Shown in pieces: positions 11,857-42,489 of a stretch of DNA of 64,000 nt. How positions within the stretch are numbered: the first letter of the stretch is position 1; every line of letters begins with the position of its first letter. Under the pieces are notes generated by a model that worked only from the letters and a program-made list of their open reading frames with translations, did no database searches and was not told the DNA's origin. A program made the translations under genes and the position numbers. The stretch is from a bacterium (lineage in GTDB: Bacteria > Campylobacterota > Campylobacteria > Campylobacterales > Sulfurimonadaceae), in the NCBI GenBank assembly GCA_018825665.1, contig JAHJEG010000015.1, positions 62,001 through 126,000 of the forward strand, in the 5' to 3' direction.

Positions 11857-12969
11857 TTAGAACTGAAAACTCTCCTTTTTAAACACCGTAAATTCAGTAG
11901 CTACTTTTTCATTTTCAAGTTTCAGCGTTTTGAGAGCTTTCGGATTTACCAAAAACCATCCTAAGACAACATCCACCCTGTCACCCTGCATAAGTTTGAA
12001 ATCATAAGAGACACTTCTTTTTTCATTGGCTTGAATCATCGTGTCTTTTAGAGTCTTATCCGCAGCCCACGGCATAGCCGGCTTACCGTCTTTGCCTATA
12101 ATCCTTACAAATATTTCATCTTGAAGGTGTGTGGTATTTGCATCTCTTGTCACGCTTACTTTGAGCACGGCAGTGCGAAGAGGGTGTAACAGTAAGGCAT
12201 GTGAAGTTTGGTTGTCGATATTGACAATAAAATCAGATATCTCTCTTAATACAGAAATGTTAACGTATTTACTGAGCATATCAGAGTGAAAATGACTCCC
12301 TGCAAAACCGTGAAAAGTGTGTTTTTCCCTTTTGTGCAAGTTTGATACACTCCCTTGTACCTTCGGCATATGGCAGCTGACACAGTTTGCATCATCCATT
12401 GAATTATCAATATTTGTCGAACATACGTTTAAGCCGTGTTTGTTCATCTTGTGGGAATGGCACCCGATACAGACATTGCCGTTTTTCATATGCTCATTTC
12501 CCTCACTGACGATACCGTGATAAGGTGATTCCATATGCTCTTCAAGTGTGCCGAAATAGTTCTTTTGGGTATGGGTCATGATATTTGTATTATGGACAGG
12601 GTGATGCTCGATACTTTTGATCCTATGACAGTATGCACAGCTGATTCCGGCCTGATGCGTAGCATTGTTCATATCGGGCATAGCCTTTTGTCCCGGTGTT
12701 TTCATAGCGTTAAGATTATCGGCGGCCGGAGTATGGCATTTGCCGCAGCCGTATCGTTCCTGTTTTGTGTTTTGGGGATGTTTTTCCCAAACCGCATTGT
12801 GAATGACATCTTTTTGCGGAGTTGAATGCGCATGCATTGAAGCGCTGAACTCATCATAAATTTGTGTATGGCAAGCTTTACAGTCCTCGCTTGGGGCGTA
12901 GGTACGTGTCATGTCGTTTGCAAAAAGCCAGGTGTAGAACAGGAGGGATAAACCAAGGAGGAGTTTCAT
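11857..12969 (-). CDS. Periplasmic pentaheme c-type cytochrome (cytochrome c-554-like)
   Basis: 370-residue exported protein: signal peptide ending near LFA (residue 17) and five CxxCH heme-binding motifs at residues 30-34 (CKACH), 74-78 (CGKCH), 110-114 (CAYCH), 166-170 (CIGCH) and 195-199 (CVSCH). Several other histidines between the motifs could be distal ligands. After about residue 215 there is a heme-free, beta-rich C-terminal domain. The motif spacing resembles the cytochrome c-554/NapC-NrfA-like multiheme group; the partner is unknown. AAAAGG lies a few bases before the ATG, and a strong palindrome sits about 60 bases upstream. Confidence 0.88.
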   Translation of the reverse strand: MKLLLGLSLLFYTWLFANDMTRTYAPSEDCKACHTQIYDEFSASMHAHSTPQKDVIHNAVWEKHPQNTKQERYGCGKCHTPAADNLNAMKTPGQKAMPDMNNATHQAGISCAYCHRIKSIEHHPVHNTNIMTHTQKNYFGTLEEHMESPYHGIVSEGNEHMKNGNVCIGCHSHKMNKHGLNVCSTNIDNSMDDANCVSCHMPKVQGSVSNLHKREKHTFHGFAGSHFHSDMLSKYVNISVLREISDFIVNIDNQTSHALLLHPLRTAVLKVSVTRDANTTHLQDEIFVRIIGKDGKPAMPWAADKTLKDTMIQANEKRSVSYDFKLMQGDRVDVVLGWFLVNPKALKTLKLENEKVATEFTVFKKESFQF

Positions 12970-22365: not shown

Positions 22366-25300
22366 CTATTTGGAAGTTTTTTTGACAAGGCGCAGTCCGT
22401 CATCTTTATTGTGTATGTAGAGATAGTTCGACGTTGCGTCCGCTGCATAATAGAAGAAATCATTCTGTATCGCTTCATTGTAAAAAATGGCGTAAGAGTA
22501 GCGCGCAGTGTCCGTCTCCTGTAAGATACTGCTGCTTGATGGATGGATGGTATATACCTTATAATACACCTCCCCAAGCGCGCTGTCATAATGTCTTGTA
22601 AGCATGTAGATTGTGTTGTCAACGACACGGATAGAGCTTGGAATGCTTCCAAGATTCAATTGCGAGAAGTTGGGCAGAGTATAGTAGTCCACTACCTTTG
22701 CCGTGCCCGCATCACTGCCGTCACTCTCCCAAAGAGCATCAAAATACAGGAAGTAAAACTTGTCATCGCAGGTAAAATATCCGTTGATATCCTGTGCGTA
22801 TTGCTTGGCCCCAAAGCTGTGTGCCAGTACAGTTCCTCCCGGAGTTCCGTCTGTTTTCCACAGTTCCGTGACATCATTGTAGCCCACACTTGCGTCTCCC
22901 GCATATCTGTATTGGAAATAAACGGCGTCCTTGTATGTAATCATCTGATTCATATTGAGGCTTAGTTGTTTAAGAAACTGTGTGCCGCTCTGTGTCCCGT
23001 CACTGCTCCAGAGACCGTCTTGGGCATTGGTGCTGTCGTGATTATTGAAAAAAACTTTTTGGGCTCCTGTAAATAATGTAAAGATCTCCAAGCCGTTTTT
23101 GAGAAGCTTTGTTCCCTCCTGTGTACCGTCGCTGACCCAGAGCTCGCTGTTATTGGAGGTGCTGTCTTTGTCTGCAATAAAATAGAGCGTGTCGTTGAGC
23201 AGGACCAAAGATGTTATTTTCATAAAACCGGACATATCTTTGACAAGGAGAGTTCCCTCTGGAGTACCGTCTGTACGCCAGAGATGATAATTGTAATAGG
23301 TACTGCCTCCGCCTGCATGTGCAATAAAATAGACATTTTCTCCAAGAGTCACAAAGTCGGATGGAAATCCTATGCTCTTTGTGCTGTCTATTTGATGCGC
23401 TTGCTCGCCCACGCCTGCAACAAAAGGCTCTCTGTCTCCGGATTCGGTTTCTCCGGCATAGATATATTTTTGGGCAAACTTATGCATAGGTGTGCCCAGG
23501 TACAAGGAAGAGCCGCTTGGATTGGCATCGTTGAGCATCATTGTCCCGGCCTCACTCGCATCACTCATCCATGCTTCAACCGCATGCACGGTATCGGTAA
23601 AAGGCAGAAGAATGGAAGGTCTGTGATAAATGCCAAATTCCCCTTTTGCCGTATATACGCCGTCACTTACACTGATAATGATCTTTTGATCCAGAGTAAT
23701 GTCGGCACTCTCAAAGGCATCGACGGAGATGGTGCCGCTGCATTGAGAAATATTATTCTCATCCAGGCTGCAGCTGATATTGGAGATATGCGTTCCTTCG
23801 TATCCGAGAGGTCCTTCAATGGTTGAGATGCTCACCTGGATTGTGAGTGTGTCTATAGGCGTATCTCTGTCGGTAAGTGAAAAAGAGATCGCCACCTGGT
23901 CAGCTCCCCCTACACGAATATTTGTATCAAAAATATCTCCGCTGATTTGCGGACCTTTGTATGCTATTCCGTCGTAAAGGCTCAAAAGTACGGGCTGACC
24001 GCTGTTTACAAGAGCCAGAACCAGATCACGGTCGGTATCAAGAAATTCAAACTTCTGGATGTTCATAGCGGCATCTTTGTACTGAAAAATATTCTCATCA
24101 TCCCGTGTAGGGTGTGCGGCAGTGCTAAGAAAGCCCGAACAGGTGATTCCGTTGGCACAATAATAGGCGCCAATCGGATTGTAACGCAAAGACTTATTTG
24201 CGCCGTTAGCCGTCGAAGTACCGACATAATAAGCATCTGTCGGGGCATCGTAATTGAGCTGCTGAAGTTTGAGGCCCAGTCTGAGGTTGGCATAGAACCC
24301 ATCCACATGTGAGACCAGATTCATTTTTTTGTCATATCTGTAGGCCAAAGTTTTGAGCGGAGAATTTTCGTTATAGTAGAGCGTATATGGAACGCTATAG
24401 GATATATCCTGCGAATCGCTGAGCTCTATTCTGTTTTGTCCGTTGATTGTAAAAAGAAGAAGATTTCCGCTTTTTACCCCAAAAAGACAGTCCATTTTTT
24501 CGCTCGTACAGCTGTTTTGAATCTCTTTCCAATCCGCACGGTAAGAGGACTCTGTTTCAAAAAGCAGATTCTGGGTCAAGACGGCAAGGTGTGATTCATC
24601 TATAAATTCCAAATCCTGAAATACTGTCTGTGTCCCTATATTTGGATGGGAGAGCAGGGTGAGATTGGTATCGCTGATTGTATAGAGATTGAGTTTTGTG
24701 TGTACGGGTTCATGTTTATCGGTACTTGCATAGTCCAAAGGGATATAAGGCACAATCAACTGTGTTCTCTTAGGCGACAAGAAAGAGCGGATGGTCGTAA
24801 AGACGGTCTGATTGGATTCGTCTTTTATCTCAATGCTTGATTCAAGGCTCATCACACCCTCATCGGTATAACGTACCGTCATCACTCTTGCCCCTGAGTC
24901 ATGCGAGAAGACAAAGAGCATTCTGTTGTCCGCCAAAAGGCGCACCAGCGACAACTCTTTTTGTCCCGTTGAAAACATCGACCTGCCAATAGATTTTGAG
25001 GCTGTCATAGCCTCTTTTATCGGGAGAAGCGTGCCGTTGAAGTCGTTGATGTCATAACTAAAGAGCTCTCTCATAGTGGATGTCACGGGGTCAACCTCCA
25101 GCACGGTTGCAGGAAGCGTGTCGTAGATATTGCTGCTCACGATAGCTTTTGAATCAAAGATATCGATGATTTTTCGAAAATTCGTGTCACTCTCAAGCTG
25201 ATTCATCACACGCATCTCCATGGAGAGGACATCTCTTCCGCTTGCCATTACGGCAACATCAAGAGAGGTGTCCACAAGAGCAACGGAGCTGTTTATACTC

Positions 25301-28300
25301 TCATCCAAAACCACATCAACGGTTATGGAGACAAGCGCACTCGGTTCTCTTTTTTGATTATGCAGTTTTTGCTGCTCAAAATCACTGCTCAGTGGGTTTT
25401 CCAAGGCCAGCTGATTGCTTGAGTTATACACCGGATAATCGCTAATGACAAGCTGGTACTTATTCTCATCGAGATGTGTCCATTCAAATGCGGCATTCTT
25501 GTTGAATATCTCTTCGAGTTTAAGGGTTTGGCTGAACACACCTATCATATCGTCATCTTCCTTGCTTATTCCGTCATCTTCGACAATGGCAAGTTCGATG
25601 TAGAGTGCAGCTATGTTCTCACTTCCTCCGCTGTAGAGGAGTGCATCGTTCGTATCAAGCTCTTCATTGTCCGCTACCCCTGTAAAATAAAGATAATCCC
25701 AGTCCTGACCCGAAGCATCCCCTATCACCTCCGTGTCTGAAAAAAGTGAACGGATTTGATTCGAAGTCCTTGGGGCATCACCGATAACGCCTACAAACGG
25801 GATAAGATGGATCTCCGCATTATCGTCGGACTCATAATTGGAGATTATCTTTACATTGTTCAAGGAGACTTTTACGCTTGCAACGGGAGCGGAACTCACC
25901 CTTGCAAACTCCATGGCTCCTCTTGTCTTTTTGCCCACCCCAAACAAATACTGTGCGTCTGATTTTAGGACATTGTTCCCGTTTTGTGCAGAACCTTCAT
26001 TTTTGTAGTTATTCAAGAGTTCTTCAACATCCGAATAAAGATCCACGCCGCCGTTGAGTTTACTGATGTCGCTGCCGGTTCTGAGACGCTCTTTTGCTTC
26101 GTCTATCTTGCCGGCCTGGATAAGGGCTGCAATCTCTTGGGCCTCTCTCATAACCGTGCTGGTGTTTGAATCGCTTGAGCTTCCCGTGAGGACATTATAG
26201 ACATCTTGCTCGCCCGGGAGCTGCTCCTTGTCCATGTTGAGCACAAGGTCGGCTGTTTGGAAGAACTGCATTCCGCCGTTGCTTATGTCGGCAAGGCCGC
26301 AGGCAATCTTCGCATAACTCAGTTTTTGTCCGTAGGTGTCTATATCCGTATTTTTTTGGGCAACTCCGGACATATAAAAATGATAGGCGTCTTGTGTATG
26401 AAGCCCGTAAAAGGGATCCGTGCTTGAGAATCTGTTGATTGCGGCTCTGGCACTTCCCAGAGGATCGTCCTGTGCCGCAAGCTCCACGTCATGCAGCTCA
26501 TCCGCCAAGGTCACGGTATCGCAGACAAGATCGATAAAATTTCCCGTGACAATATTGAGTGCCTGACTTGCAGCATAGCTTAAGACAGGCAGAAGCTCCG
26601 CATTGGCATTATAAACATCCTGGTCGCTCGCCACATAATCAAAGGTGATAGGTAGGGTGCTTTTATTGACCCGCTCAACCGGCACGCCCAATACAGGACG
26701 GTTCGTTTCTATAATAACCGGAATGCGGGGGTATTCGCCCGTGTTTAAAAAAGTATCGATACAGCCGGTATTTGTGCTGTTGCACTCCATAAACTCCTGT
26801 GTTTTATAGGCAAGACCGTTGTAGGGAAACTGCCCCACATCGACCTGCACGGTTCTTTCTATCCAGTTTTGATAAAGGTCATAATAATTAGAGAGGATAT
26901 GAAGGTATTCCACGTCCTGATACTGTCTTTGCATATATTTTGAGTAATCTGTCATCACCATATGGGCTTTATAGCTCTCTGTGGGGTTTGCAATATTGTA
27001 AGGTCCGAGTTCCCCTTTTATACAGGTGTCCTGCATGCCGTCCTCATCGGGGCAGATATAGGTTTGCGGGTCATTTTGATAATCGTAGCTGTGTGCAGAT
27101 TCGTAGAGTTGTTTTCTTCGCAAAAACTCATCGTTGTAGCTGTAGCATGCTCCGTCTGTTTTAAACTCATCGCCTGTCTTTTGGGAATTTATCCAGCACT
27201 GCCAAAGCGCTATCTCATTACTCATCGTATCCGTGCTCTTGATGAGGTCATCGATATACGAGGGTATGTTGATAGGCGGTGCCATATTTGTATTGAGATT
27301 GATGCTCACTTCCCCCTCATTGAAGGCCCCGTCTTCCCCCTCTGTTTTTAGTGAAACCGATTTGAGGATTCCAAGCACAAACTCTTTTGTCTGTATCTGC
27401 TGGTCTGTATTGATATAAGTCGCCAGATTCAAATAGGTCTCACCGCCTTGCGTTATAGAGGTTGGAGCGAGTCCTGATAGGGTGCCTGCATCTGTCGCAG
27501 AAAAGGAAACAGCGTCTTTTGGCAAAATATCAAGTCTCCATATACCTTTTTCCCTCGTGACCCCATCCATCTGCAAAGCACCGAGCGAACCCCCTGATTT
27601 GCCCCAGAAGACACTTCCTCCGGGTGCGTACAGTACATAGTTGAAATAAGCCTCCGTATCATTGTCCGTATCGATATCAAAAGTGATGTTTAAATCACTC
27701 AGCTGTGAATGAATCGTGCTGAAAGTATAGGATTTTGCATGAAAGAGAGTGTTGTTCCTGTAAAGCTCGTCTGAGCCCGTACTTAAGAACTCCGTGCCGT
27801 TTAAGAAGATATGCTGTGCGACTCTTTGCGGCTGTATGATATCTGTAAGGGTGATGCTAAACTGTGCATCGGCTCCCTCAAATACAAAGGGTTTGCACAC
27901 ATCCGCGCCTGTAATAGGGATATAATAGGTATAGGTCTCACCGATAAGGCGGTTATCCAGCTCTGCGGATTCGCTGTTTTTTATGATGATACGTTGATCT
28001 GAGCGACCCGAGACGACAATAACGGCGATTCCCGTTTGAGGAAACTGCACTTTGACATCGCCCCCTTCAGAGGTGACGAGAGTGGTATTTACGGAGCTCT
28101 GCTCTTTTGCAATCGTCATTGGAAAATGGACTCTTGAAATTTGGCAGCTGTTGTCCATAAACGGAAAATCAGAGACGATCCCATCCGGTCGAAGCTCTTT
28201 ATCGGCGTTGACGAGCACGTAGCCATCAGGCACCAGTGCACTCACGCGAGAGGCCGATTGCGAAGGAGCAGAGGAGGTGCCGATGGTATCTCGTGCCAGT

Positions 28301-28911
28301 ATATTTTGATAGCGCTGATCCAGATTACCGAAATTATTCACCATCTCCACCTTCTCAAAAGCACTCTGTAGAGAGAGAAATGCCTCCATGCTCAGAGGCT
28401 CCTGCGCTGCGAGTCTGAGTTTTTTGTTGAAGCTTTTTAATTTTTCCTGATTTAAAAGATCCAAGGCCTGTGTACTGATGTTTTTTACAGGAAATATTTT
28501 CGAATCAGGCAAGGCAATCATTTGCTCTACCAAAACAGGAGAGTAGCGGAGTGCTTTTAGCTTGTCTATAACCTCAGTTGCCACTGCGGCATCTTCAAGC
28601 TTTTTATACTCAATCTTATTGTTATTCACTCTGAGCAGTTTGGAGATCTCCTCCGTACTTATCTGCGGATTGGCATTTTGTATCTCAACACTCAAAGCCA
28701 AGGCGCCTACGGAGGATATTTTGCTCTGAAGCTCCTGCACACTGCTGATACCTATGGAAGAGAAGGTCGCATTAAAATCCTCCAAAACTACAGAGGTGTC
28801 TTCAAAAACAGTGCCAGAACCGCCGCTGCTTCCTCCCCCTCCGGAACATGAAGTCAAAACCAAAACGCTAAAAAGACCCAAAACCAAACTTTGAAATTTT
28901 ATGGGATACAT
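22366..28911 (-). CDS. Giant outer-surface lipoprotein with ELWxxDGTxxGT repeats
   Basis: 2181 residues, the largest gene here. Signal peptide with lipobox LTSC (Cys22), then a Gly/Ser-rich spacer. Most of the chain is long, acidic and beta-rich with no family I can name; around 1690-1850 the pattern suggests cadherin- or Ig-like domains. The last 350 residues hold five copies of a beta-propeller-like motif: HLWRTDGTPEGT, ELWVSDGTQEGT, GLWSSDGTQSGT, ELWKTDGTPGGT, ALWESDGSDAGT, plus a degenerate AWMSDASEAGT. Such repeats occur in large bacterial surface proteins. It has its own promoter with an 11-bp-periodic box shared with the next exported operon. Confidence 0.85.
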   Translation of the reverse strand: MYPIKFQSLVLGLFSVLVLTSCSGGGGSSGGSGTVFEDTSVVLEDFNATFSSIGISSVQELQSKISSVGALALSVEIQNANPQISTEEISKLLRVNNNKIEYKKLEDAAVATEVIDKLKALRYSPVLVEQMIALPDSKIFPVKNISTQALDLLNQEKLKSFNKKLRLAAQEPLSMEAFLSLQSAFEKVEMVNNFGNLDQRYQNILARDTIGTSSAPSQSASRVSALVPDGYVLVNADKELRPDGIVSDFPFMDNSCQISRVHFPMTIAKEQSSVNTTLVTSEGGDVKVQFPQTGIAVIVVSGRSDQRIIIKNSESAELDNRLIGETYTYYIPITGADVCKPFVFEGADAQFSITLTDIIQPQRVAQHIFLNGTEFLSTGSDELYRNNTLFHAKSYTFSTIHSQLSDLNITFDIDTDNDTEAYFNYVLYAPGGSVFWGKSGGSLGALQMDGVTREKGIWRLDILPKDAVSFSATDAGTLSGLAPTSITQGGETYLNLATYINTDQQIQTKEFVLGILKSVSLKTEGEDGAFNEGEVSINLNTNMAPPINIPSYIDDLIKSTDTMSNEIALWQCWINSQKTGDEFKTDGACYSYNDEFLRRKQLYESAHSYDYQNDPQTYICPDEDGMQDTCIKGELGPYNIANPTESYKAHMVMTDYSKYMQRQYQDVEYLHILSNYYDLYQNWIERTVQVDVGQFPYNGLAYKTQEFMECNSTNTGCIDTFLNTGEYPRIPVIIETNRPVLGVPVERVNKSTLPITFDYVASDQDVYNANAELLPVLSYAASQALNIVTGNFIDLVCDTVTLADELHDVELAAQDDPLGSARAAINRFSSTDPFYGLHTQDAYHFYMSGVAQKNTDIDTYGQKLSYAKIACGLADISNGGMQFFQTADLVLNMDKEQLPGEQDVYNVLTGSSSDSNTSTVMREAQEIAALIQAGKIDEAKERLRTGSDISKLNGGVDLYSDVEELLNNYKNEGSAQNGNNVLKSDAQYLFGVGKKTRGAMEFARVSSAPVASVKVSLNNVKIISNYESDDNAEIHLIPFVGVIGDAPRTSNQIRSLFSDTEVIGDASGQDWDYLYFTGVADNEELDTNDALLYSGGSENIAALYIELAIVEDDGISKEDDDMIGVFSQTLKLEEIFNKNAAFEWTHLDENKYQLVISDYPVYNSSNQLALENPLSSDFEQQKLHNQKREPSALVSITVDVVLDESINSSVALVDTSLDVAVMASGRDVLSMEMRVMNQLESDTNFRKIIDIFDSKAIVSSNIYDTLPATVLEVDPVTSTMRELFSYDINDFNGTLLPIKEAMTASKSIGRSMFSTGQKELSLVRLLADNRMLFVFSHDSGARVMTVRYTDEGVMSLESSIEIKDESNQTVFTTIRSFLSPKRTQLIVPYIPLDYASTDKHEPVHTKLNLYTISDTNLTLLSHPNIGTQTVFQDLEFIDESHLAVLTQNLLFETESSYRADWKEIQNSCTSEKMDCLFGVKSGNLLLFTINGQNRIELSDSQDISYSVPYTLYYNENSPLKTLAYRYDKKMNLVSHVDGFYANLRLGLKLQQLNYDAPTDAYYVGTSTANGANKSLRYNPIGAYYCANGITCSGFLSTAAHPTRDDENIFQYKDAAMNIQKFEFLDTDRDLVLALVNSGQPVLLSLYDGIAYKGPQISGDIFDTNIRVGGADQVAISFSLTDRDTPIDTLTIQVSISTIEGPLGYEGTHISNISCSLDENNISQCSGTISVDAFESADITLDQKIIISVSDGVYTAKGEFGIYHRPSILLPFTDTVHAVEAWMSDASEAGTMMLNDANPSGSSLYLGTPMHKFAQKYIYAGETESGDREPFVAGVGEQAHQIDSTKSIGFPSDFVTLGENVYFIAHAGGGSTYYNYHLWRTDGTPEGTLLVKDMSGFMKITSLVLLNDTLYFIADKDSTSNNSELWVSDGTQEGTKLLKNGLEIFTLFTGAQKVFFNNHDSTNAQDGLWSSDGTQSGTQFLKQLSLNMNQMITYKDAVYFQYRYAGDASVGYNDVTELWKTDGTPGGTVLAHSFGAKQYAQDINGYFTCDDKFYFLYFDALWESDGSDAGTAKVVDYYTLPNFSQLNLGSIPSSIRVVDNTIYMLTRHYDSALGEVYYKVYTIHPSSSSILQETDTARYSYAIFYNEAIQNDFFYYAADATSNYLYIHNKDDGLRLVKKTSK

Positions 28912-35035: not shown

Positions 35036-36085
35036 TTAGAATAGAACCGAAAAAGAGAGTAAAAGAATGTCGCTGTTTTTTAGAGTATGGAACTGGTATT
35101 CGCTTTTTATGGCTACAGGCTGTATCGGTCTGTAGGTATATCCGATGACAGAAAAGGTATCCTGATTTTGTTCATACTCATTGTCCATGTAGTCCTCAAA
35201 TCTCAGTATGAAAGAGTGCTTTTCTTTGTACCTGTAAACGCCCTGTATATAGCCCATGTACTGTATATTTGTCGTATTATTAAGGAACTGCTTTCCAAGT
35301 TCGGACTGTATTAAAATATTTTCACTCTCATATTTGAATCCAAAGAGCAGATAATTGTAGACATCGTCACTTTTTTGAGTTTCGTACTCCTCAAAATAGT
35401 CATCCTCGTCATTGTCTCCGTCATCTACAATTACGGCTTCTTCAAACTCTTTATAGTGCCCCGCGCTCAGCTTATAGCTTAAGGCATCTTTTGTGTAGGT
35501 GAGAGAGAGTGCAAGATGCTGTATTATTTTGGAATCATTGTATTTTGGGTCTATATCGGGGGAATTCTGTCCCAAGATATCCAGCTCGAATACCGAGTCC
35601 GATATAAGGCTGTATTTTAAACCTACACCGGTTGAGAGTTTTGGATACAGCATCTCAGCCGTAAGAGGATTGGAGGTTGTGTCTCTAAGAACATTGATTG
35701 GGACCTCATTCCAGAATCCGACCGGAGTATAAAATTTTCCGGCTGTAAGAGAGTAGTTTTCATTGATCTGATATTTGGCAAAAACTCTTTCTGCGTATAT
35801 ATTCCCATGCTGTGTGGATTTTTGGGAGATGAAGCTGTACTGGTATGGATTTAAAGACTCAAATTCTACGAGATAGGAGAGTTTATCGGCGGAGCCGTAA
35901 GCCAGGAAGGATACATCATCCAAACTGGCCCCATTTGTATTTGTGCCCTGCGCATAGCTTGTTGAAAAGTAGCCGCCGACATAAAGATAGGAGTCTACAA
36001 GAGAATAACCCTGTCCCAGCTCATAGCTATCATTGGCCTGCATTGCAGAAAACAAGAATAAGAGCAAAAATAGTTTTTTTTTCAT
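35036..36085 (-). CDS. Porin-like outer membrane beta-barrel protein
   Basis: 349 residues with a signal peptide ending at MQA (residue 17), alternating amphipathic strands throughout and a C-terminal Phe (SFSVLF), the outer-membrane signature. Segments such as ERVFAKYQINENYSLTAGKF and FYTPVGFWNEVP resemble phosphate-selective/OprP-like or general porin proteins of the phylum. A very acidic loop (DDGDNDEDDYFEEYE, about residues 218-232) could select cations. The ATG overlaps the dsbD stop by one base, making it the last gene of the cytochrome-ApbE cluster. Confidence 0.8.
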   Translation of the reverse strand: MKKKLFLLLFLFSAMQANDSYELGQGYSLVDSYLYVGGYFSTSYAQGTNTNGASLDDVSFLAYGSADKLSYLVEFESLNPYQYSFISQKSTQHGNIYAERVFAKYQINENYSLTAGKFYTPVGFWNEVPINVLRDTTSNPLTAEMLYPKLSTGVGLKYSLISDSVFELDILGQNSPDIDPKYNDSKIIQHLALSLTYTKDALSYKLSAGHYKEFEEAVIVDDGDNDEDDYFEEYETQKSDDVYNYLLFGFKYESENILIQSELGKQFLNNTTNIQYMGYIQGVYRYKEKHSFILRFEDYMDNEYEQNQDTFSVIGYTYRPIQPVAIKSEYQFHTLKNSDILLLSFSVLF

Positions 36086-37827
36086 TAGAGATTTATTATA
36101 GCTAAAAACTCTTGAGGAGCTTTGTACCCTACTACCCTCTTGCTTTCTATCAGGTCGGTGTTTGTATCAAAAAAGAGTATTGCCGGAGGTCCGAAAATAT
36201 TATACTCTCTGGATAAGGCCTTGCTTTTATCATCGTTGGCACTTAGATCCGCTTTTATTAAAACATACTCATCCAGAGCGCTGATTACGGCAGGATCCTT
36301 AAATGTGATCTCTTCAAGCTCTTTACATGAAGTACACCATTTTGCTGCAAAATCCAGCATTACCTTCTTGCCTTTGGAAGCTTCTAGAAGAGTGTCGAGT
36401 TCATGAACCGAGTATACCGTTTTGAAGTGAAGTCTGGTTTTTTGATTTTCTGCAACCGCACTTTTATTCGTAAATTTTTCAAATGGTTCCAAAATATTTT
36501 CCGCACCGCTTAGGAGTCCTATAAAAACAGAGATACCGATACTGAGCAGGATAATTCCTATACCCTTTAAAAGGGCATGCCAGCCTCTTTTTGTTCCCAA
36601 AGGCTCCAAAGCTCCAAGATAGATGGAAGAGATGGTGAAAAGTGCCGCCCACAGAGCCATTATGGTTTGCGTCGATGCGATTTTTTGAAGCATCCAAATG
36701 GCAATGGCGAGCATAATAACTCCAAACACTTCAGATACACGGTTCATCCATCCGCCTGGACGAGGCATAAATTTGCCCGAGCCGGCACCTATAAGCAGAA
36801 GCGGCGCACCCATACCCAGACTCATGACAAAAAGAGCGACTCCTCCAAGTACGGCATCCCCTGTTTGTCCTATATATACAAGCGTACCTGCAAGCGGCGG
36901 TGCCACACAGGGACCGACAATAAGAGCGGATAAAAAGCCCATAACCGCGACACCGAGCAGACCCCCTTTATTTGAAGCGCCGTCGGAGACTTTTGAGAGT
37001 CTGCTTTGAAGGGAGGAGGGAAGACCAATCTCATAAAATCCGAACATGGAAAAAGCAAGAGCCACAAACACAAGGGCAAAAGAGATGACAACATAAGGGT
37101 TTTGCATCGCGGCCTGCAGGTTGCTTCCAAAAAGCCCTGCCAAAACTCCGGCAATCGTATAGGCAAAGGCCATAGAGAGCACATAGATGAGAGAAAGGAA
37201 AAACCCTCTTTTTGCACTCATCCCTTCCCCTTGCGAAACTATGATAGAGGATAAAATCGGTATCATCGGAAAGATACAGGGTGTCAAAGACAAGAGAAGC
37301 CCAAAACCAAAAAATGTAAGTAAGACGATGAGAATGCTGTCATTTTTAAAACTGTCTGCAATCTTGTCTGTCTCATTTGCCAAAACGGGTGCCGGAATCT
37401 GCTTTGAAGCGATCTTCAGGGCGGAACCGCTCACATCGAAACTGAACTCTTTCTCTATGGGTTCATAACACAGGCCTTTGCCTGAGCATCCCTGGAAAGA
37501 GAGAGTAAGGGTGATATTTTTCGTATCGTCAAATTCTTGAGTTTTTGCCAAATCCACCGTGATGAGCACGCTTTTTTCATAAACCTCTTTTGCATCAAAA
37601 AGAGCAGCTGCAGGAAGATGAATCTTTTGTATCCAAACAAGATCACTTGTCGTAGTAACCTGTATCGAATCTTTATATATGTGAATATCTTCACCCGCTT
37701 TGATCTCAATAGAGACTTTGTCTGCATCGAGTACGGCTGATGGGATAAATGCCTCTTCTGGCATCAAAAAATTTGCCGCACCCAAAAATGTGAATAAACT
37801 TAAAAATAAAAATATGATTTTTTTCAT
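36085..37827 (-). CDS. dsbD: Thiol:disulfide interchange protein DsbD
   Basis: 580 residues in three parts: periplasmic alpha domain after a signal peptide, with its Cys pair in CSGKGLCYEP (about 114-123); eight-helix membrane domain with the paired cysteines in TPCIFPMIP and VGPCVAPPL; and a C-terminal thioredoxin domain with AAKWCTSCKELEE. It carries reducing power from cytoplasmic thioredoxin to the periplasm. Next to heme proteins, a TlpA thioredoxin and a cysteine-ending DUF4266 protein, its probable job here is to keep CxxCH apocytochrome thiols and the other cysteines reduced. Confidence 0.94.
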   Translation of the reverse strand: MKKIIFLFLSLFTFLGAANFLMPEEAFIPSAVLDADKVSIEIKAGEDIHIYKDSIQVTTTSDLVWIQKIHLPAAALFDAKEVYEKSVLITVDLAKTQEFDDTKNITLTLSFQGCSGKGLCYEPIEKEFSFDVSGSALKIASKQIPAPVLANETDKIADSFKNDSILIVLLTFFGFGLLLSLTPCIFPMIPILSSIIVSQGEGMSAKRGFFLSLIYVLSMAFAYTIAGVLAGLFGSNLQAAMQNPYVVISFALVFVALAFSMFGFYEIGLPSSLQSRLSKVSDGASNKGGLLGVAVMGFLSALIVGPCVAPPLAGTLVYIGQTGDAVLGGVALFVMSLGMGAPLLLIGAGSGKFMPRPGGWMNRVSEVFGVIMLAIAIWMLQKIASTQTIMALWAALFTISSIYLGALEPLGTKRGWHALLKGIGIILLSIGISVFIGLLSGAENILEPFEKFTNKSAVAENQKTRLHFKTVYSVHELDTLLEASKGKKVMLDFAAKWCTSCKELEEITFKDPAVISALDEYVLIKADLSANDDKSKALSREYNIFGPPAILFFDTNTDLIESKRVVGYKAPQEFLAIINL

Positions 37828-37846
37828 GATAACCGCCTTATGCTAT

Positions 37847-38767
37847 TTAAAAAGGATAAACTTCAAAACTTTCTATATTGATATCTGAGAAATTCTCAAA
37901 TAAGATCTCTTTGTCCCTGCTTATGGCTACAACGGCTACGTTGAATCTTTGTGCCATCTCTTTGAGTTTGCTTCTGTTTGAGTTAAAAACTACAGTTGCG
38001 ATCCCATCAAGTGTCGTCGTATCCATTCCATTTTTGATGATGGTTACGCTGCTGTAGTAATGATTTGGCTTGGCGCTTTCTTTGTCAAGAATATGATGAT
38101 GCTCTTTTGATTTGATAAACCTTTCATAATCACCGCTCGTAGAGATACAAAGAGCCTCTTTGGATGTTTTTATAAGGCCTATATTTCCGTCCTTAAAAGG
38201 ATTTTTGATGGCAATATTATATTTTTTTCCAAAAGAACACACCTCACCGCCTACAGATACGATTGCTTTTGTAGCACCCATTCTTTGAAGATGCTCCATA
38301 ATCTTATCTGCGACATAACCTTTTCCTATCCCTCCCAAGTCCAGTTTCATCCCGGTATGCGTTAAAAATATTTCATTATTATGAATATGCAGATACTTGT
38401 AATTAACCAATTTTCTTGTTTTTAGGAGTTCTATTGAAGTGGGTATTTTTTCATTTTTTGTTCCAAATCCGTAAAGTCCCTGTGTGAGAACTCCTATAGT
38501 AGGGTCAAAAGAACCATTGGACATTCTTGCCAATTCCAAGGCCTTTTGAAATATTTCAAGCTCTTTATACTCACAGCGAATACTTTTAATCCCTGAAGCT
38601 TTGTTTATTTGACTTAAAAGAGAACCCTCGTCGTATGCTGAGTACTTTTGTTCAAATTTTTTTGCTATATCCAAGCACTCAAAAAGAGTTTTCTTGGATA
38701 CATTCGATTCTATTAAAAGTTCTGTAGTCATAACAGTTGTTCTGAGTCCATTTTCAAAAAAAGACAT
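37847..38767 (-). CDS. apbE: FAD:protein FMN transferase ApbE
   Basis: About 306 residues. The core GGIGKGYVADKI, the SVGGEVCSFGKKY strand and NPFKDGNIG are typical of ApbE, which attaches FMN through a phosphodiester to Thr or Ser in Dxx(S/T)GA(S/T) motifs of exported proteins. I see no clear signal peptide or lipobox, which is unusual, since the target acts outside the cytoplasm. The ATG at 38767 is one base after the upstream stop; in-frame ATGs at 38785 and 38809 overlap the neighbour and are not excluded. The preceding gene encodes a DAVTGAS motif, a likely substrate. Confidence 0.88.
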   Translation of the reverse strand: MSFFENGLRTTVMTTELLIESNVSKKTLFECLDIAKKFEQKYSAYDEGSLLSQINKASGIKSIRCEYKELEIFQKALELARMSNGSFDPTIGVLTQGLYGFGTKNEKIPTSIELLKTRKLVNYKYLHIHNNEIFLTHTGMKLDLGGIGKGYVADKIMEHLQRMGATKAIVSVGGEVCSFGKKYNIAIKNPFKDGNIGLIKTSKEALCISTSGDYERFIKSKEHHHILDKESAKPNHYYSSVTIIKNGMDTTTLDGIATVVFNSNRSKLKEMAQRFNVAVVAISRDKEILFENFSDINIESFEVYPF

Positions 38768-38768
38768 T

Positions 38769-39884
38769 TTAGTAATCAAACTCATAGGATATAGTTGTAA
38801 AAACGGCATTCAGACTCTTGACACCGTACCAGCTCTGGATATATTCATTGCTGCTCGTCTGATAATAATCAACACTCGCCGTAAGTTTAGACCCGCCGTT
38901 CATCTTATATATAAAAGGCACTCCGATAGTATAAGAATCAAAAGCGCTCATCCTGTAATCCGTTGCAAAATATGTATCACTAAGCGTATAGGAACCTATA
39001 GGCTTAATAAAATTCGATTTTGTCTGCGTGTAATATCTCAGTCTCAAACCGCTTGTAAAATTGTCACTAAAATCGTGCAGCTCTTCTATATTGAGCGTGT
39101 GCGATGAGATGTCCCAGTCGTCCGTATAGTATCTATAGGAAACATTCATGCTGTTTGTTTCATTCAACAGAGTTACCCCCTTAAGAGCAAAAGCATGCCC
39201 CGTTCTTTTGTCAGGGTAGTTTTCAAACTTTGCAATATCATCTTGTAGAACAAAGTGATACGGAGAGGATAAGAACCCTTCACTATTCATATAAGAATAC
39301 ACGGCCTGAATAGAAAGTGTCGGCGAAATAAGTTGATTTACGGATAGATCCACCTTTCCTTCATTTCTGTTGTCCTTAGGCAAGTCTCTTTGAAATACAG
39401 GTTTCCATGTATCAAACGACTGCGAAATCCCTATACCCAAAGCAGTGTTTTGCTCATTAAGCTGTCTTACATAATTTACAAAAGCAGATTGCCCCGTATA
39501 ATCGACTTCACTTGAAAAATATCCGCCGAAACTGACCAGGTTCTCACCATCGTCATAGGTAGCCATAAGCGTAGGCGCATAGCGAATATCATCGTAAGGT
39601 ACTTCCTTGGATGAAGCTCCTGTAACGGCATCCACATGCGTAGCGTTACTCCCGTTTTTAATACTTGCTGCCGAAATCGCATCAATCCTCATCTTCACTC
39701 CAAGCATCCATTGCGAGGAGATTTTTTTGAAGAGTGAAAGTGTAGGAGAGTAGACCTCTACACCCGCATTATCGGTATATGTGTTGACTCCAAAGGAGAT
39801 GGTATCTTTTAAATCAGATGCAAGGGATGTTATCTCAAGCATCAGCAGTGAGAGGGTAAATATAAAAAATTGTTTTATCTGCAT
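38769..39884 (-). CDS. DUF3570 outer-membrane barrel with flavinylation-like motif
   Basis: 371 residues, signal peptide ending near SLA (about residue 22), then amphipathic beta strands ending in EFDY: an outer-membrane barrel of DUF3570 type. Residues about 85-91 read DAVTGAS, fitting the ApbE target pattern Dxx(S/T)GA(S/T); the threonine would be the FMN site. A similar DAISAAS lies 17 residues earlier. The ATG at 39884 has AAGGAGG at ideal spacing; the TTG at 39890 is adjacent to it and unlikely. It overlaps the DUF4266 gene by 10 bases and precedes apbE by one base. Confidence 0.85.
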   Translation of the reverse strand: MQIKQFFIFTLSLLMLEITSLASDLKDTISFGVNTYTDNAGVEVYSPTLSLFKKISSQWMLGVKMRIDAISAASIKNGSNATHVDAVTGASSKEVPYDDIRYAPTLMATYDDGENLVSFGGYFSSEVDYTGQSAFVNYVRQLNEQNTALGIGISQSFDTWKPVFQRDLPKDNRNEGKVDLSVNQLISPTLSIQAVYSYMNSEGFLSSPYHFVLQDDIAKFENYPDKRTGHAFALKGVTLLNETNSMNVSYRYYTDDWDISSHTLNIEELHDFSDNFTSGLRLRYYTQTKSNFIKPIGSYTLSDTYFATDYRMSAFDSYTIGVPFIYKMNGGSKLTASVDYYQTSSNEYIQSWYGVKSLNAVFTTISYEFDY

Positions 39885-40093
39885 CCGCAACCTCCTTGAA
39901 AAGCACTTTCCCCGCCGGCACTGGCCTCACGGATTAGAAAAATATGACCCTCCTGTTCCGCTCTTTCGGCAATCGGGGAGAGGCTCATTTTTTCTTGCGC
40001 AAAGTACTCTTTTTCATAGGGCATAACCCGTACCAGTCTGTCTGAACAGCCGCTTAGAACCAGGGCTGAGAGTATCAGGATAATTTTATACAT
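39875..40093 (-). CDS. DUF4266 lipoprotein
   Basis: 72 residues. Signal peptide with lipobox LSGC (Cys16), then a short conserved body, MSLSPIAERAEQEGHIF followed by IREASAGGESAFQGG, and a C-terminal CGCR. This is the DUF4266 family, which travels with DUF3570 barrels and thioredoxins. The role is unknown. The paired C-terminal cysteines could bind metal or be substrates of the neighbouring TlpA and DsbD. It is 2 bases from tlpA. Confidence 0.85.
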   Translation of the reverse strand: MYKIILILSALVLSGCSDRLVRVMPYEKEYFAQEKMSLSPIAERAEQEGHIFLIREASAGGESAFQGGCGCR

Positions 40094-40095
40094 AA

Positions 40096-40593
40096 TTATT
40101 TTCCCAATAAGCTTTTTATCTTGATCTTTAATTTGGCAAGCGAATCTTCATCAATACTGCCAATAAAAATATCTACCAGTTTTCCATTTGCATCAATTAG
40201 ATAGGATGAAGGCATACCCATGCATTTGTAGGCCTTTGGAAGAGTCTTTTCTTTATCATAAAAAGAGTTTAAGACTCTATTTTGGTCAACACCGTTTAAA
40301 AAGGAGATCGCACTTTGAGGATCTTTATCTATACTGGAGAGAAGAATTTTAAAATTACTCTCTTTAAACTCTTCCTGAAGTTCTACAAAAAGAGGCATCT
40401 CCTCTTTACAGCCTCCGCACCAGCTGGCCCAAAGGTTTAATAAGATTACGTTTCCTTTGAAATCAGTACTTGAGAGTTCCTGATTTAGATTGTACAAATT
40501 TGGAAGTTTAAAATCCGTTACATTGTCTCCGATTTGAGGGGCTGCAAAAACATTTGCACATAAAAACAGTGCAACCAATAATACTTTTTTCAT
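40096..40593 (-). CDS. TlpA-like periplasmic thioredoxin
   Basis: 165 residues with a signal peptide ending at VFA (about residue 17) and a TlpA/ResA-type thioredoxin fold; active site LWASWCGGCKEEMP (about residues 53-66). The CGGC active site and the following E-E-M-P are usual for reductases or heme-maturation proteins that act on cytochrome thiols. In this operon it probably works between DsbD and the heme lipoproteins or DUF4266. Confidence 0.9.
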   Translation of the reverse strand: MKKVLLVALFLCANVFAAPQIGDNVTDFKLPNLYNLNQELSSTDFKGNVILLNLWASWCGGCKEEMPLFVELQEEFKESNFKILLSSIDKDPQSAISFLNGVDQNRVLNSFYDKEKTLPKAYKCMGMPSSYLIDANGKLVDIFIGSIDEDSLAKLKIKIKSLLGK

Positions 40594-40608
40594 TTTTTAT
40601 CCTTTACT

Positions 40609-41199
40609 CTATTCGCATAGATTTTTGTTGATTTGTGCAAATAATGGCGCTTGCACACCGCCTTTTATATGGCAAGAGTTACAAGAAACTCTATTGTTGA
40701 TGTCGGCAGAATTATTTATATCATACGGCAGTGACGAAAACGCGTGTGTTTGTGTCGATACCGCTAAGACATTTGCATTCTCATCTGTTATCTGTACATA
40801 GTAGTCTCCGGGACTGACCGAATACAACATTCTTTTTAAAATAAAGATATTTCCCTTTCCTTTATAGCCTTTGGAATCAAGATCTTCATAATCCTTTGAA
40901 CTGTATGTGAGATTAAAGCCCGAATCATAAAGATTTATAATCTGCTTTCCTCCGCAGACATTGTTCAAATCATCCTGATCTGTTATATTCTGGTCTTTAT
41001 AAAGAGTACCGCCAAAGAGGAGATTTTTCTCCTCCTGAAGGTCAACATTATGGCAGGCAAGGCAGTCTCTGCCTTGAAAGTGCCAGCCTTGAACACCTGA
41101 TACCGTGCTACTTTGCTCTTCACCTTCTTCTTCCTCCCCGCAGCCGCTTAAAAATAGAGCTGTAGACAGAAGTAAAAGAAATAAAATAGTTTTCTTCAT
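40609..41199 (-). CDS. Diheme c-type cytochrome lipoprotein
   Basis: About 196 residues. Lipobox LSGC, then an acidic spacer, then heme motif CLACH around residue 46-50 in WHFQGRDCLACHN and a second, CNSCH, around 175 in NRVSCNSCHIKGG. It resembles the first half of the neighbouring tetraheme protein (HNQGKNCLSCH), so both share a domain. Anchored on the outer or inner membrane, it should pass electrons between the barrel proteins and the periplasm. ATG at 41199 is preceded by AAGGAG; the TTG at 41202 is less well placed. Confidence 0.85.
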   Translation of the reverse strand: MKKTILFLLLLSTALFLSGCGEEEEGEEQSSTVSGVQGWHFQGRDCLACHNVDLQEEKNLLFGGTLYKDQNITDQDDLNNVCGGKQIINLYDSGFNLTYSSKDYEDLDSKGYKGKGNIFILKRMLYSVSPGDYYVQITDENANVLAVSTQTHAFSSLPYDINNSADINNRVSCNSCHIKGGVQAPLFAQINKNLCE

Positions 41200-41208
41200 C
41201 AAATCTCC

Positions 41209-42489
41209 TTAGTTGTTTAGTGCACCGGCACTAATCCAGTCTTGTATAGTTGTATATTGTGCGGATGAAGCACTAATAGCAGCTCCTCCTCCATGACTGA
41301 CCTGGCCGCTTCCTTTTAGTAAAAGAGAAGAATTTGCAGGACTGGCAGTATTAACAAAGGCAGATACATTACTATAAGCGGTAGACGGATTACTGACACT
41401 GAAGTTTCCACTGCCGCCATGACATGCTTTACAGTCAGTATTGAGCAGAGGCAATACGTCTGCTGCAAAAGATACTGCTGTCGTCGTTGTGCCTGTTGTT
41501 GTGCCTGTCGTTGTGCCTGTCGTTGTGCCTGTCGTTGTGCCTGTCGCGGCACCGCCGTCATCAAGTGCACCGGCACCAATCCAATCCCGTATCGTTGTAT
41601 ATTGAGCAGATGAAGTGCTGATAGTAGCTCCTCCACCATGACTGACCTGACCACTCCCTTTTTGTAAAAGAGGGGAACTTTCCGGGCTGGCAGTATTTAC
41701 AAAACCTATTACATTGCTATAGGCGGTAGATGTATTACTGACGCTAAAGCTTCCGCTTCCACCATGACAGACTTTACACTCTGTATCGAGTATGGGTAAA
41801 ATATCTGTGCTAAACAGTGGTGTCCCTGTAGTCCCGGTTGTTGTTCCTGTGTCTGTCGTAGTACCGGTAGTCGTGCCGGTGTTTAGCGAAGCATAATAGT
41901 CATAGGAAACGATTCTTCCCGGTGAATTATTTGTCCCCGTTGCACCGTGACAACTGTTACAATCGAGTCTGGTAAGGTCGTGCGTGCTCAGTGAACTGTT
42001 AACCACTTCTCCCTGAGGATTTATAACTTGTGCCGTATATCCGTTTACAGTTCCTGTGTTGAAAGATGATTGCGCATTCCCTGTACCCCTGCCTTTGGAG
42101 TAGTTTATGATTTGATTTGTATTTTCCAATAAAAGTCTTATGGAGTAATCGCTTGCATATTTGCTGCCATCACTGTCTGCTGCATTGATTGTCGTAAAAA
42201 TAGATGCACCTGAAGTAAATCTATCTTCATTGCTCCCATTATGACAGCTTAAGCAGTTTTTTCCCTGATTATGAAAGGATATATTTGCTGTAGTAATATT
42301 AGAAGTGTTACTACTATTATCATTATCATCATCATCATCATAACTTTCCCGATCATAACGTTCATATTCGGAACTTTCACTCTCATAACTTTCTCTATCA
42401 GAACCTTCATCGTCCGAATTGCTTGTCTCGCCGCAGCCACTTAATAGAGCTGCTACTGTAAGAAGACTTATCAAATAATGCTTTTTCAT
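41209..42489 (-). CDS. Tetraheme c-type cytochrome lipoprotein with duplicated domain
   Basis: 426 residues: lipobox LLSGC (Cys19), a highly acidic Ser/Asp/Glu-rich spacer (about 25-65), an N-terminal diheme domain with CLSCH and CNSCH like the next gene's protein, then two nearly identical monoheme domains, each starting DI/DVLP-L-x-T-x-CK-x-CHGGSG and ending with a QYTTI-x-DWI-x-AGAL block. The domains are joined by Thr/Gly linkers (TGTT)n encoded by 12-bp tandem repeats. It heads the cluster that continues to the porin. A pair of 7-bp direct repeats 4 bases apart lies upstream. Confidence 0.87.
   Translation of the reverse strand: MKKHYLISLLTVAALLSGCGETSNSDDEGSDRESYESESSEYERYDRESYDDDDDNDNSSNTSNITTANISFHNQGKNCLSCHNGSNEDRFTSGASIFTTINAADSDGSKYASDYSIRLLLENTNQIINYSKGRGTGNAQSSFNTGTVNGYTAQVINPQGEVVNSSLSTHDLTRLDCNSCHGATGTNNSPGRIVSYDYYASLNTGTTTGTTTDTGTTTGTTGTPLFSTDILPILDTECKVCHGGSGSFSVSNTSTAYSNVIGFVNTASPESSPLLQKGSGQVSHGGGATISTSSAQYTTIRDWIGAGALDDGGAATGTTTGTTTGTTTGTTTGTTTTAVSFAADVLPLLNTDCKACHGGSGNFSVSNPSTAYSNVSAFVNTASPANSSLLLKGSGQVSHGGGAAISASSAQYTTIQDWISAGALNN
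41483..41542. repeat. 12-bp tandem repeat inside the tetraheme lipoprotein gene
   Basis: Five consecutive units of GTCGTTGTGCCT on the plus strand (the second has one change). On the coding strand they give in-frame Thr-Gly linkers. A change in copy number would alter linker length by four residues without a frameshift. Confidence 0.9.

Follow-up and report, generated by a model that had tools for sequence, protein, structure and literature searches.

A plausible flavinylated outer-membrane redox device beside heme lipoproteins in a Sulfurimonas-type bacterium

The DNA analyzed here is a stretch of 64,000 nt (“the window”) from a Sulfurimonas-type, sulfur-oxidizing ocean bacterium, and all coordinates are those of the window. 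A row of eight minus-strand genes, arranged like an operon, occupies positions 35036 to 42489. In the order of their transcription, they are:

41209..42489, minus strand: CytA, an Asp/Ser-rich lipoprotein with four CXXCH motifs (lipobox LLSGC; cytochrome c Pfam matches)
40609..41202, minus strand: CytB, a diheme lipoprotein (two CXXCH motifs and a lipobox Cys) with further invariant cysteines C83 and C196
40096..40593, minus strand: TlpA-like periplasmic thioredoxin with WCGGC (TlpA/Redoxin, 4.5e-21)
39875..40093, minus strand: DUF4266, a small lipoprotein with a C-terminal CGC, i.e., a CXC motif (PF14086, 5e-14)
38769..39890, minus strand: DUF3570, a 16-stranded outer-membrane beta-barrel and predicted ApbE substrate (PF12094, 2e-54)
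37847..38767, minus strand: ApbE, an FAD:protein FMN transferase with no signal peptide (PF02424, 8e-60)
36085..37827, minus strand: DsbD, a full-length transmembrane thiol electron carrier (DsbD_N, DsbD_TM and C-terminal thioredoxin; PF02683, 2.8e-93)
35036..36085, minus strand: BBP2/porin-O/P-like outer-membrane protein, a looser partner (BBP2 below the cut-off, 21 of 26 bits)

An earlier note on this DNA had described a near-contiguous cluster of these eight genes, and both the shared strand of the open reading frames and their Pfam matches bear this out. The spacing at the center of the row is especially tight: the DUF4266 gene overlaps the start of the DUF3570 gene by 16 bases, and a single base separates the DUF3570 stop codon (38771-38769) from the apbE ATG (38767). 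Since the gene order and the flavin sites described below are found again in dozens of related loci, the arrangement is far from a chance one. The named relatives of the locus are Sulfurimonas genomes, and its DUF3570 places inside Sulfurimonas in the tree. Within the genus, 22 of 135 genomes have DUF3570, making it an accessory trait; a search of viral contigs for DUF3570 gave no match. Elsewhere in the window are a 2181-aa lipoprotein with a Gly/Ser-rich start (22366-28911) and a pentaheme cytochrome-like protein with five CXXCH motifs (11857-12969).

The AlphaFold model of mature DUF3570, built with 64 homologues, is a 16-stranded barrel (mean pLDDT 91.1, pTM 0.86). Its top Foldseek matches are outer-membrane barrels only (e.g., OmpG, FadL and AlgE), and a PDB sequence search with the DUF3570 profile gave no match. 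The protein has the even strand number, loop asymmetry, signal peptide, and C-terminal Tyr of an outer-membrane beta-barrel. PF12094 is its only domain; the FMN_bind domain (PF04205) was not found in it. The linkers on one side of the barrel (side A) are 4, 27, 2, 11, 22, 4, 27, and 15 residues long (mean 14, range 2–27), and the turns on the other (side B) are 4, 3, 4, 2, 4, 4, and 5 residues long (mean 3.7, range 2–5). Outer-membrane barrels have both termini and their short turns in the periplasm; therefore, the long-loop side A is the outside. Conservation is concentrated toward this side. Of the 21 strand positions conserved in at least 90% of sequences, 19 lie in the half toward side A (shuffle p ~1e-4, with neighboring positions not independent), and further invariant residues are in outside loops (W259, D258, P226, E223, F294, D311, and R313). 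In the model, there is what looks like a conserved, outward-facing vestibule that adjoins the flavins and holds most of the family-invariant residues.

Two predicted flavinylation sites are associated with one of the outside loops:

39663..39683, minus strand: predicted flavinylation site 1, DAISAAS, residues 70-76, acceptor S76
39612..39632, minus strand: predicted flavinylation site 2, DAVTGAS, residues 87-93, acceptor S93
39591..39671, minus strand: predicted extracellular loop L2, residues 74-100, between strands 3 and 4 (model topology)

Loop L2, at 27 residues, is the joint-longest loop of side A; S76 is located at the beginning of L2, and site 2 is entirely within it. The model of L2 is low in confidence (pLDDT <50 at mature residues 51–71), and the flavins may sit outside or be folded into the mouth or lumen of the barrel. 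The earlier note had proposed a flavin-carrying barrel as an electron path across the outer membrane. The model agrees with the barrel and with sites on an extracellular loop; that electrons cross it is something we infer.

The FMN acceptor of ApbE substrates is the final residue of the motif DxxSGA[ST] (PMC12052999). Set against a [S/T]GA[S/T] motif, site 2 fits, with TGAS, whereas site 1, which starts 17 residues upstream, has SAAS. The acceptor serine of both sites is nonetheless present in 28 of 28 DUF3570 proteins from the same phylum, among which D70, A75, S76, D87, A92, and S93 are all invariant. In a set of 64 DUF3570 proteins from several phyla, D70 is found in every one and residue 76 is Ser or Thr in 62, indicating that site 1 is family-wide and site 2 more variable. 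Both sites read SGAS in a Chlorobium homologue (L147), and in four clade A members (L085, L090, L098, and L100; clade A is described below) neither is canonical. A G-to-A change in the motif reduces flavinylation of a Klebsiella pneumoniae model substrate by ~50% (PMC12052999); by analogy, the off-consensus alanine of site 1 may lower the efficiency of flavinylation.

These data modify what the earlier note had said of the sites. It had named DUF3570, encoded one base from apbE, as an ApbE target by virtue of DAVTGAS. The motif is there, at residues 87-93, and the assignment agrees with the Chlorobium luteolum DUF3570, which is flavinylated by its cognate ApbE on co-expression and loses flavinylation only when both serines are changed (PMC8238504); the second site, DAISAAS, had been missed. 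The note had also suggested a T-to-A change in DAVTGAS as a test and conservation of the motif as a check. The threonine is the wrong residue to change. Position 90 varies naturally among T, V, A, and I (V, A, or I in L014, L015, L058, and L064), and the TGAS string is likewise not conserved, with VGAS, AGAS, IGAS, TSAS, and ATAS among relatives; it is the acceptor serine that is invariant. We considered whether loss of T90 in relatives means loss of the site and rejected this, since the acceptor is the last residue of the motif (PMC12052999). For the same reason, mutations should target S76 and S93.

The ApbE encoded next to DUF3570 differs from other ApbE proteins in lacking a signal peptide. 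Among the Sulfurimonas ApbE proteins sampled, a signal peptide was called, by N-terminal hydrophobicity rather than with a trained predictor, in none of 7 linked to DUF3570 and in all 22 others, 15 of which adjoin an FMN_bind gene. In one locus (L150), ApbE gains a hydrophobic stretch only by way of an alternative start inside the DUF3570 gene. DUF3570-linked ApbE proteins are also leaderless in Aquificota, Gammaproteobacteria, and Acidobacteriota, the exception being a Bacteroidetes locus (L116). The host genome has one ApbE of each kind, and the one FMN_bind gene found in it lies on a different contig, beside the signal-bearing ApbE. The difference in signal peptides suggests that DUF3570 is probably flavinylated in the cytosol, ahead of export. 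Cytosolic modification is also the simplest reading given that an extracellular loop would be out of reach after membrane insertion, and there is a precedent for a cytosolic ApbE in Klebsiella (PMC12052999).

DUF3570 proteins that are accompanied by CytA and CytB form a single clade, clade A, with 100/100 support. Clade A comprises Campylobacterota (Sulfurimonas and Sulfurovum), Aquificota, and one Nitrospirota row; in addition, TlpA, DUF3570, ApbE, and CytB are all encoded at a Candidatus Manganitrophus locus (L099; 53% identity, not among the sequences of the tree). Within 6 kb of DUF3570, clade A loci have TlpA in 30 of 32 cases, DUF4266 in 28, ApbE in 30, and CytB in 26. The corresponding numbers for 45 other loci are 30, 27, 28, and 0. 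CytA is near DUF3570 in 22 of 32 clade A loci. Campylobacterota have another DUF3570 lineage apart from clade A, and one genome (G295) has both (L015 and L016). Four loci of this second lineage (L104, L106, L107, and L110) encode lipoproteins of 637–675 aa upstream of TlpA, with a C-terminal diheme domain like that of CytA. In Chlorobium, an 873-aa protein with eight CXXCH motifs (L147:3696-6317) and a monoheme lipoprotein are encoded upstream of TlpA-DUF4266-DUF3570. The large diheme lipoproteins and the Chlorobium protein rule out the idea that loci outside clade A are free of cytochromes. Pairing with cytochromes may thus have arisen more than once.

CytA consists of a diheme domain and two monoheme repeats, with a weak match to hydrazine synthase alpha; a 12-base tandem repeat of 5.3 copies (window positions 41483-41546) encodes the Thr-Gly linker between its heme repeats. 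In CytB, C21, both CXXCH motifs, C83, and C196 are invariant in 22 of 22 sequences. C83 and C196 are outside the heme motifs, one of them near the C-terminus, and might make thiol contact with TlpA. AlphaFold modeled CytB weakly (pLDDT 66), the Foldseek matches of the model are not significant, and a PDB sequence search with CytB gave no credible match. The BBP2-like family is conserved in 17 loci and is near DUF3570 in 15 of 32 clade A loci and 0 of 45 others. We considered the BBP2-like porin as a core part of the system and downgraded it, since it belongs to a module of its own that is also found elsewhere in the host genome. This recurring module consists of the porin, a 137-aa PBP-like protein with no Pfam match, a response regulator, and a histidine kinase. 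Besides a copy at G000:C58 (L177), many Sulfurimonas loci have it downstream of BBP2, in some cases on the other strand; it is possibly a sensing unit tied to the flavin system.

What, then, are the thiol carriers for? TlpA/ResA-like proteins and DsbD reduce heme-site thiols in other bacteria, and heme lipoproteins adjoin them here. Hence, TlpA and DsbD could serve cytochrome biogenesis for CytA and CytB, with ApbE-DUF3570 as a separate neighbor; the earlier note had given TlpA and DsbD this role. We consider this very unlikely. TlpA-DUF4266-DUF3570-ApbE recurs without cytochrome genes in Campylobacterota and Gammaproteobacteria, and because TlpA stays with DUF3570 with or without cytochromes, it is better regarded as part of the flavin system than of heme attachment. 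Furthermore, cytochromes are present in nearly all clade A loci, whereas DsbD is within 6 kb of DUF3570 in only 10 of 32, and a second DsbD elsewhere in the host genome is for general use. Lastly, Aquificota add a ferredoxin-thioredoxin reductase: in locus L089, the gene for its catalytic chain (FeThRed_B, 3e-26; L089:10127-10627) separates those of DUF3570 and ApbE, and CytB is adjoined by a short DsbD resembling CcdA (L089:6802-7644). Two further loci, L094 and L097, have ORFs of comparable size in the corresponding position between DUF3570 and ApbE. The L089 arrangement points to reducing equivalents moving outward via thiols.

The direction of flow could also be the reverse, with an extracellular donor (sulfur, Fe(II), or Mn(II)) passing electrons through the flavins and heme lipoproteins to periplasmic carriers. 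In favor of electron uptake, the hosts are mostly chemolithoautotrophs (Sulfurimonas, Sulfurovum, Aquificota, and Candidatus Manganitrophus). However, the usual role of thiol carriers and ferredoxin-thioredoxin reductase is to deliver electrons of low potential outward, and we regard uptake as improbable.

A third alternative is maintenance of surface thiols, disulfides, or metal sites, in which the flavinylated barrel and DUF4266 would draw on electrons from DsbD and TlpA to keep partner proteins at the surface or in the periplasm (e.g., C83-C196 of CytB) reduced, for repair or maturation rather than respiration. TlpA and DsbD are classical disulfide reductants, CytB has its two extra invariant cysteines, and DUF4266 has a CXC motif. 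Moreover, a VIT1 iron transporter is encoded in 25 published clusters, suggestive of assimilatory metal reduction (PMC8238504). On the other hand, periplasmic thiol repair does not need covalent FMN on an extracellular loop, and most loci outside clade A have no CytB-like client. We consider maintenance unlikely, if the least unlikely of the three alternatives.

Instead, we read the cluster as an outer-membrane redox relay that is fed by thiols and tipped with flavin, and as a variant of the DUF3570 “DsbD” system that carries cytochromes; we judge this reading an even call. We infer the relay’s order and direction of electron flow, how the electrons get past the barrel, what CytA and CytB do, and an extracellular acceptor. 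Cytosolic thioredoxin, supplied via ferredoxin-thioredoxin reductase in some Aquificota, would reduce inner-membrane DsbD or CcdA, from where electrons would pass to periplasmic TlpA and on to the CXC thiols of the lipoprotein DUF4266. DUF4266 would then reduce one or two FMNs held covalently at S76 and S93 on the extracellular loop of the DUF3570 barrel, and CytA and CytB would exchange electrons with these FMNs on either side of the membrane. The FMNs would be attached in the cytosol by the leaderless ApbE, followed by Sec export and insertion by BAM. The relay needs an element to bridge a gap of ~25–30 Å across the membrane. Speaking against it as well are its restriction to 22 of the 135 genus members and the lack of a linked gene for any known extracellular acceptor. 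DUF4266 has ~50 residues, carries its CXC at the very end, and is co-translated with DUF3570; we hypothesize that it could reach into the barrel. Its C-terminus here is GGCGCR, and all 55 relatives end in GGCGC[RNG]. A bolder version, which we advance tentatively and lean against, treats DUF3570-DUF4266 as a novel kind of outer-membrane electron conduit that does without a multiheme wire, and in which a CXC lipoprotein, possibly within the cytosol-flavinylated barrel, feeds surface FMN, and the heme lipoproteins extend the path in vent chemolithoautotrophs.

Together, a flavin loop, a leaderless transferase, and a thiol feed provide a concrete, testable model for moving electrons to the cell surface without multiheme cytochrome wires. 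To our knowledge, flavinylated DUF3570 has been assigned no place or role since 2021. The model also raises a question of secretion, because a barrel polypeptide that carries covalent flavin would have to get through Sec and BAM. A surface redox trait common to vent and metal-oxidizing autotrophs is suggested by the spread of the cytochrome-bearing clade over Sulfurimonas, Sulfurovum, Aquificota, and Manganitrophus.

Several known systems resemble the cluster in part. The host’s own FMN_bind-ApbE pair (G000:C30) likewise has an ApbE beside its likely substrate, but there the ApbE carries a signal peptide and sits beside a soluble FMN_bind protein. In the Listeria FmnB/PplA system, a transferase of the ApbE type produces a flavoprotein at the cell surface, from which electrons pass outward; unlike here, the substrate has another fold, there is no outer membrane, and the transferase is secreted. 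The MtrCAB and PioAB conduits also place an outer-membrane barrel with a redox cofactor beside heme lipoproteins. By contrast, the cluster described here has a 16-stranded barrel, lipoproteins of two and four hemes, and a flavin that is predicted to be bound covalently to the barrel. The cluster does not encode a conduit of the MtrCAB type, since the MtrB/PioB family (PF11854) is absent from the host genome and the DUF3570 barrel is too small to sheathe a multiheme wire.

By far the closest match is the “DsbD system” of flavinylation, for which Meheust et al. (2021, eLife, PMC8238504) reported 285 DsbD clusters, with DUF3570 in 227, a thioredoxin-like protein in 183, and DUF4266 in 221. In the literature that we searched, DUF3570 and DUF4266 are named only in that paper. 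Shared with its clusters are DsbD, ApbE, DUF3570 with two sites, the thioredoxin-like protein, and DUF4266 with CXC; the cluster here differs in adding CytA, CytB, and the BBP2-like porin, and in having SAAS rather than SGAS at site 1. The class of system is thus already published, and DUF3570 flavinylation is not a new idea. Accordingly, the conduit proposed in the earlier note was right in outline, partly known already, and mistaken about the acceptor residue and the role of TlpA and DsbD. As searched, the text of PMC8238504 describes no DUF3570 outer-membrane barrel, extracellular sites, leaderless ApbE, or cytochromes in DsbD-type clusters. What appears to be new is the outward-facing flavin loop, the leaderless, probably cytosolic ApbE, and the heme partners that define a cytochrome-bearing clade.
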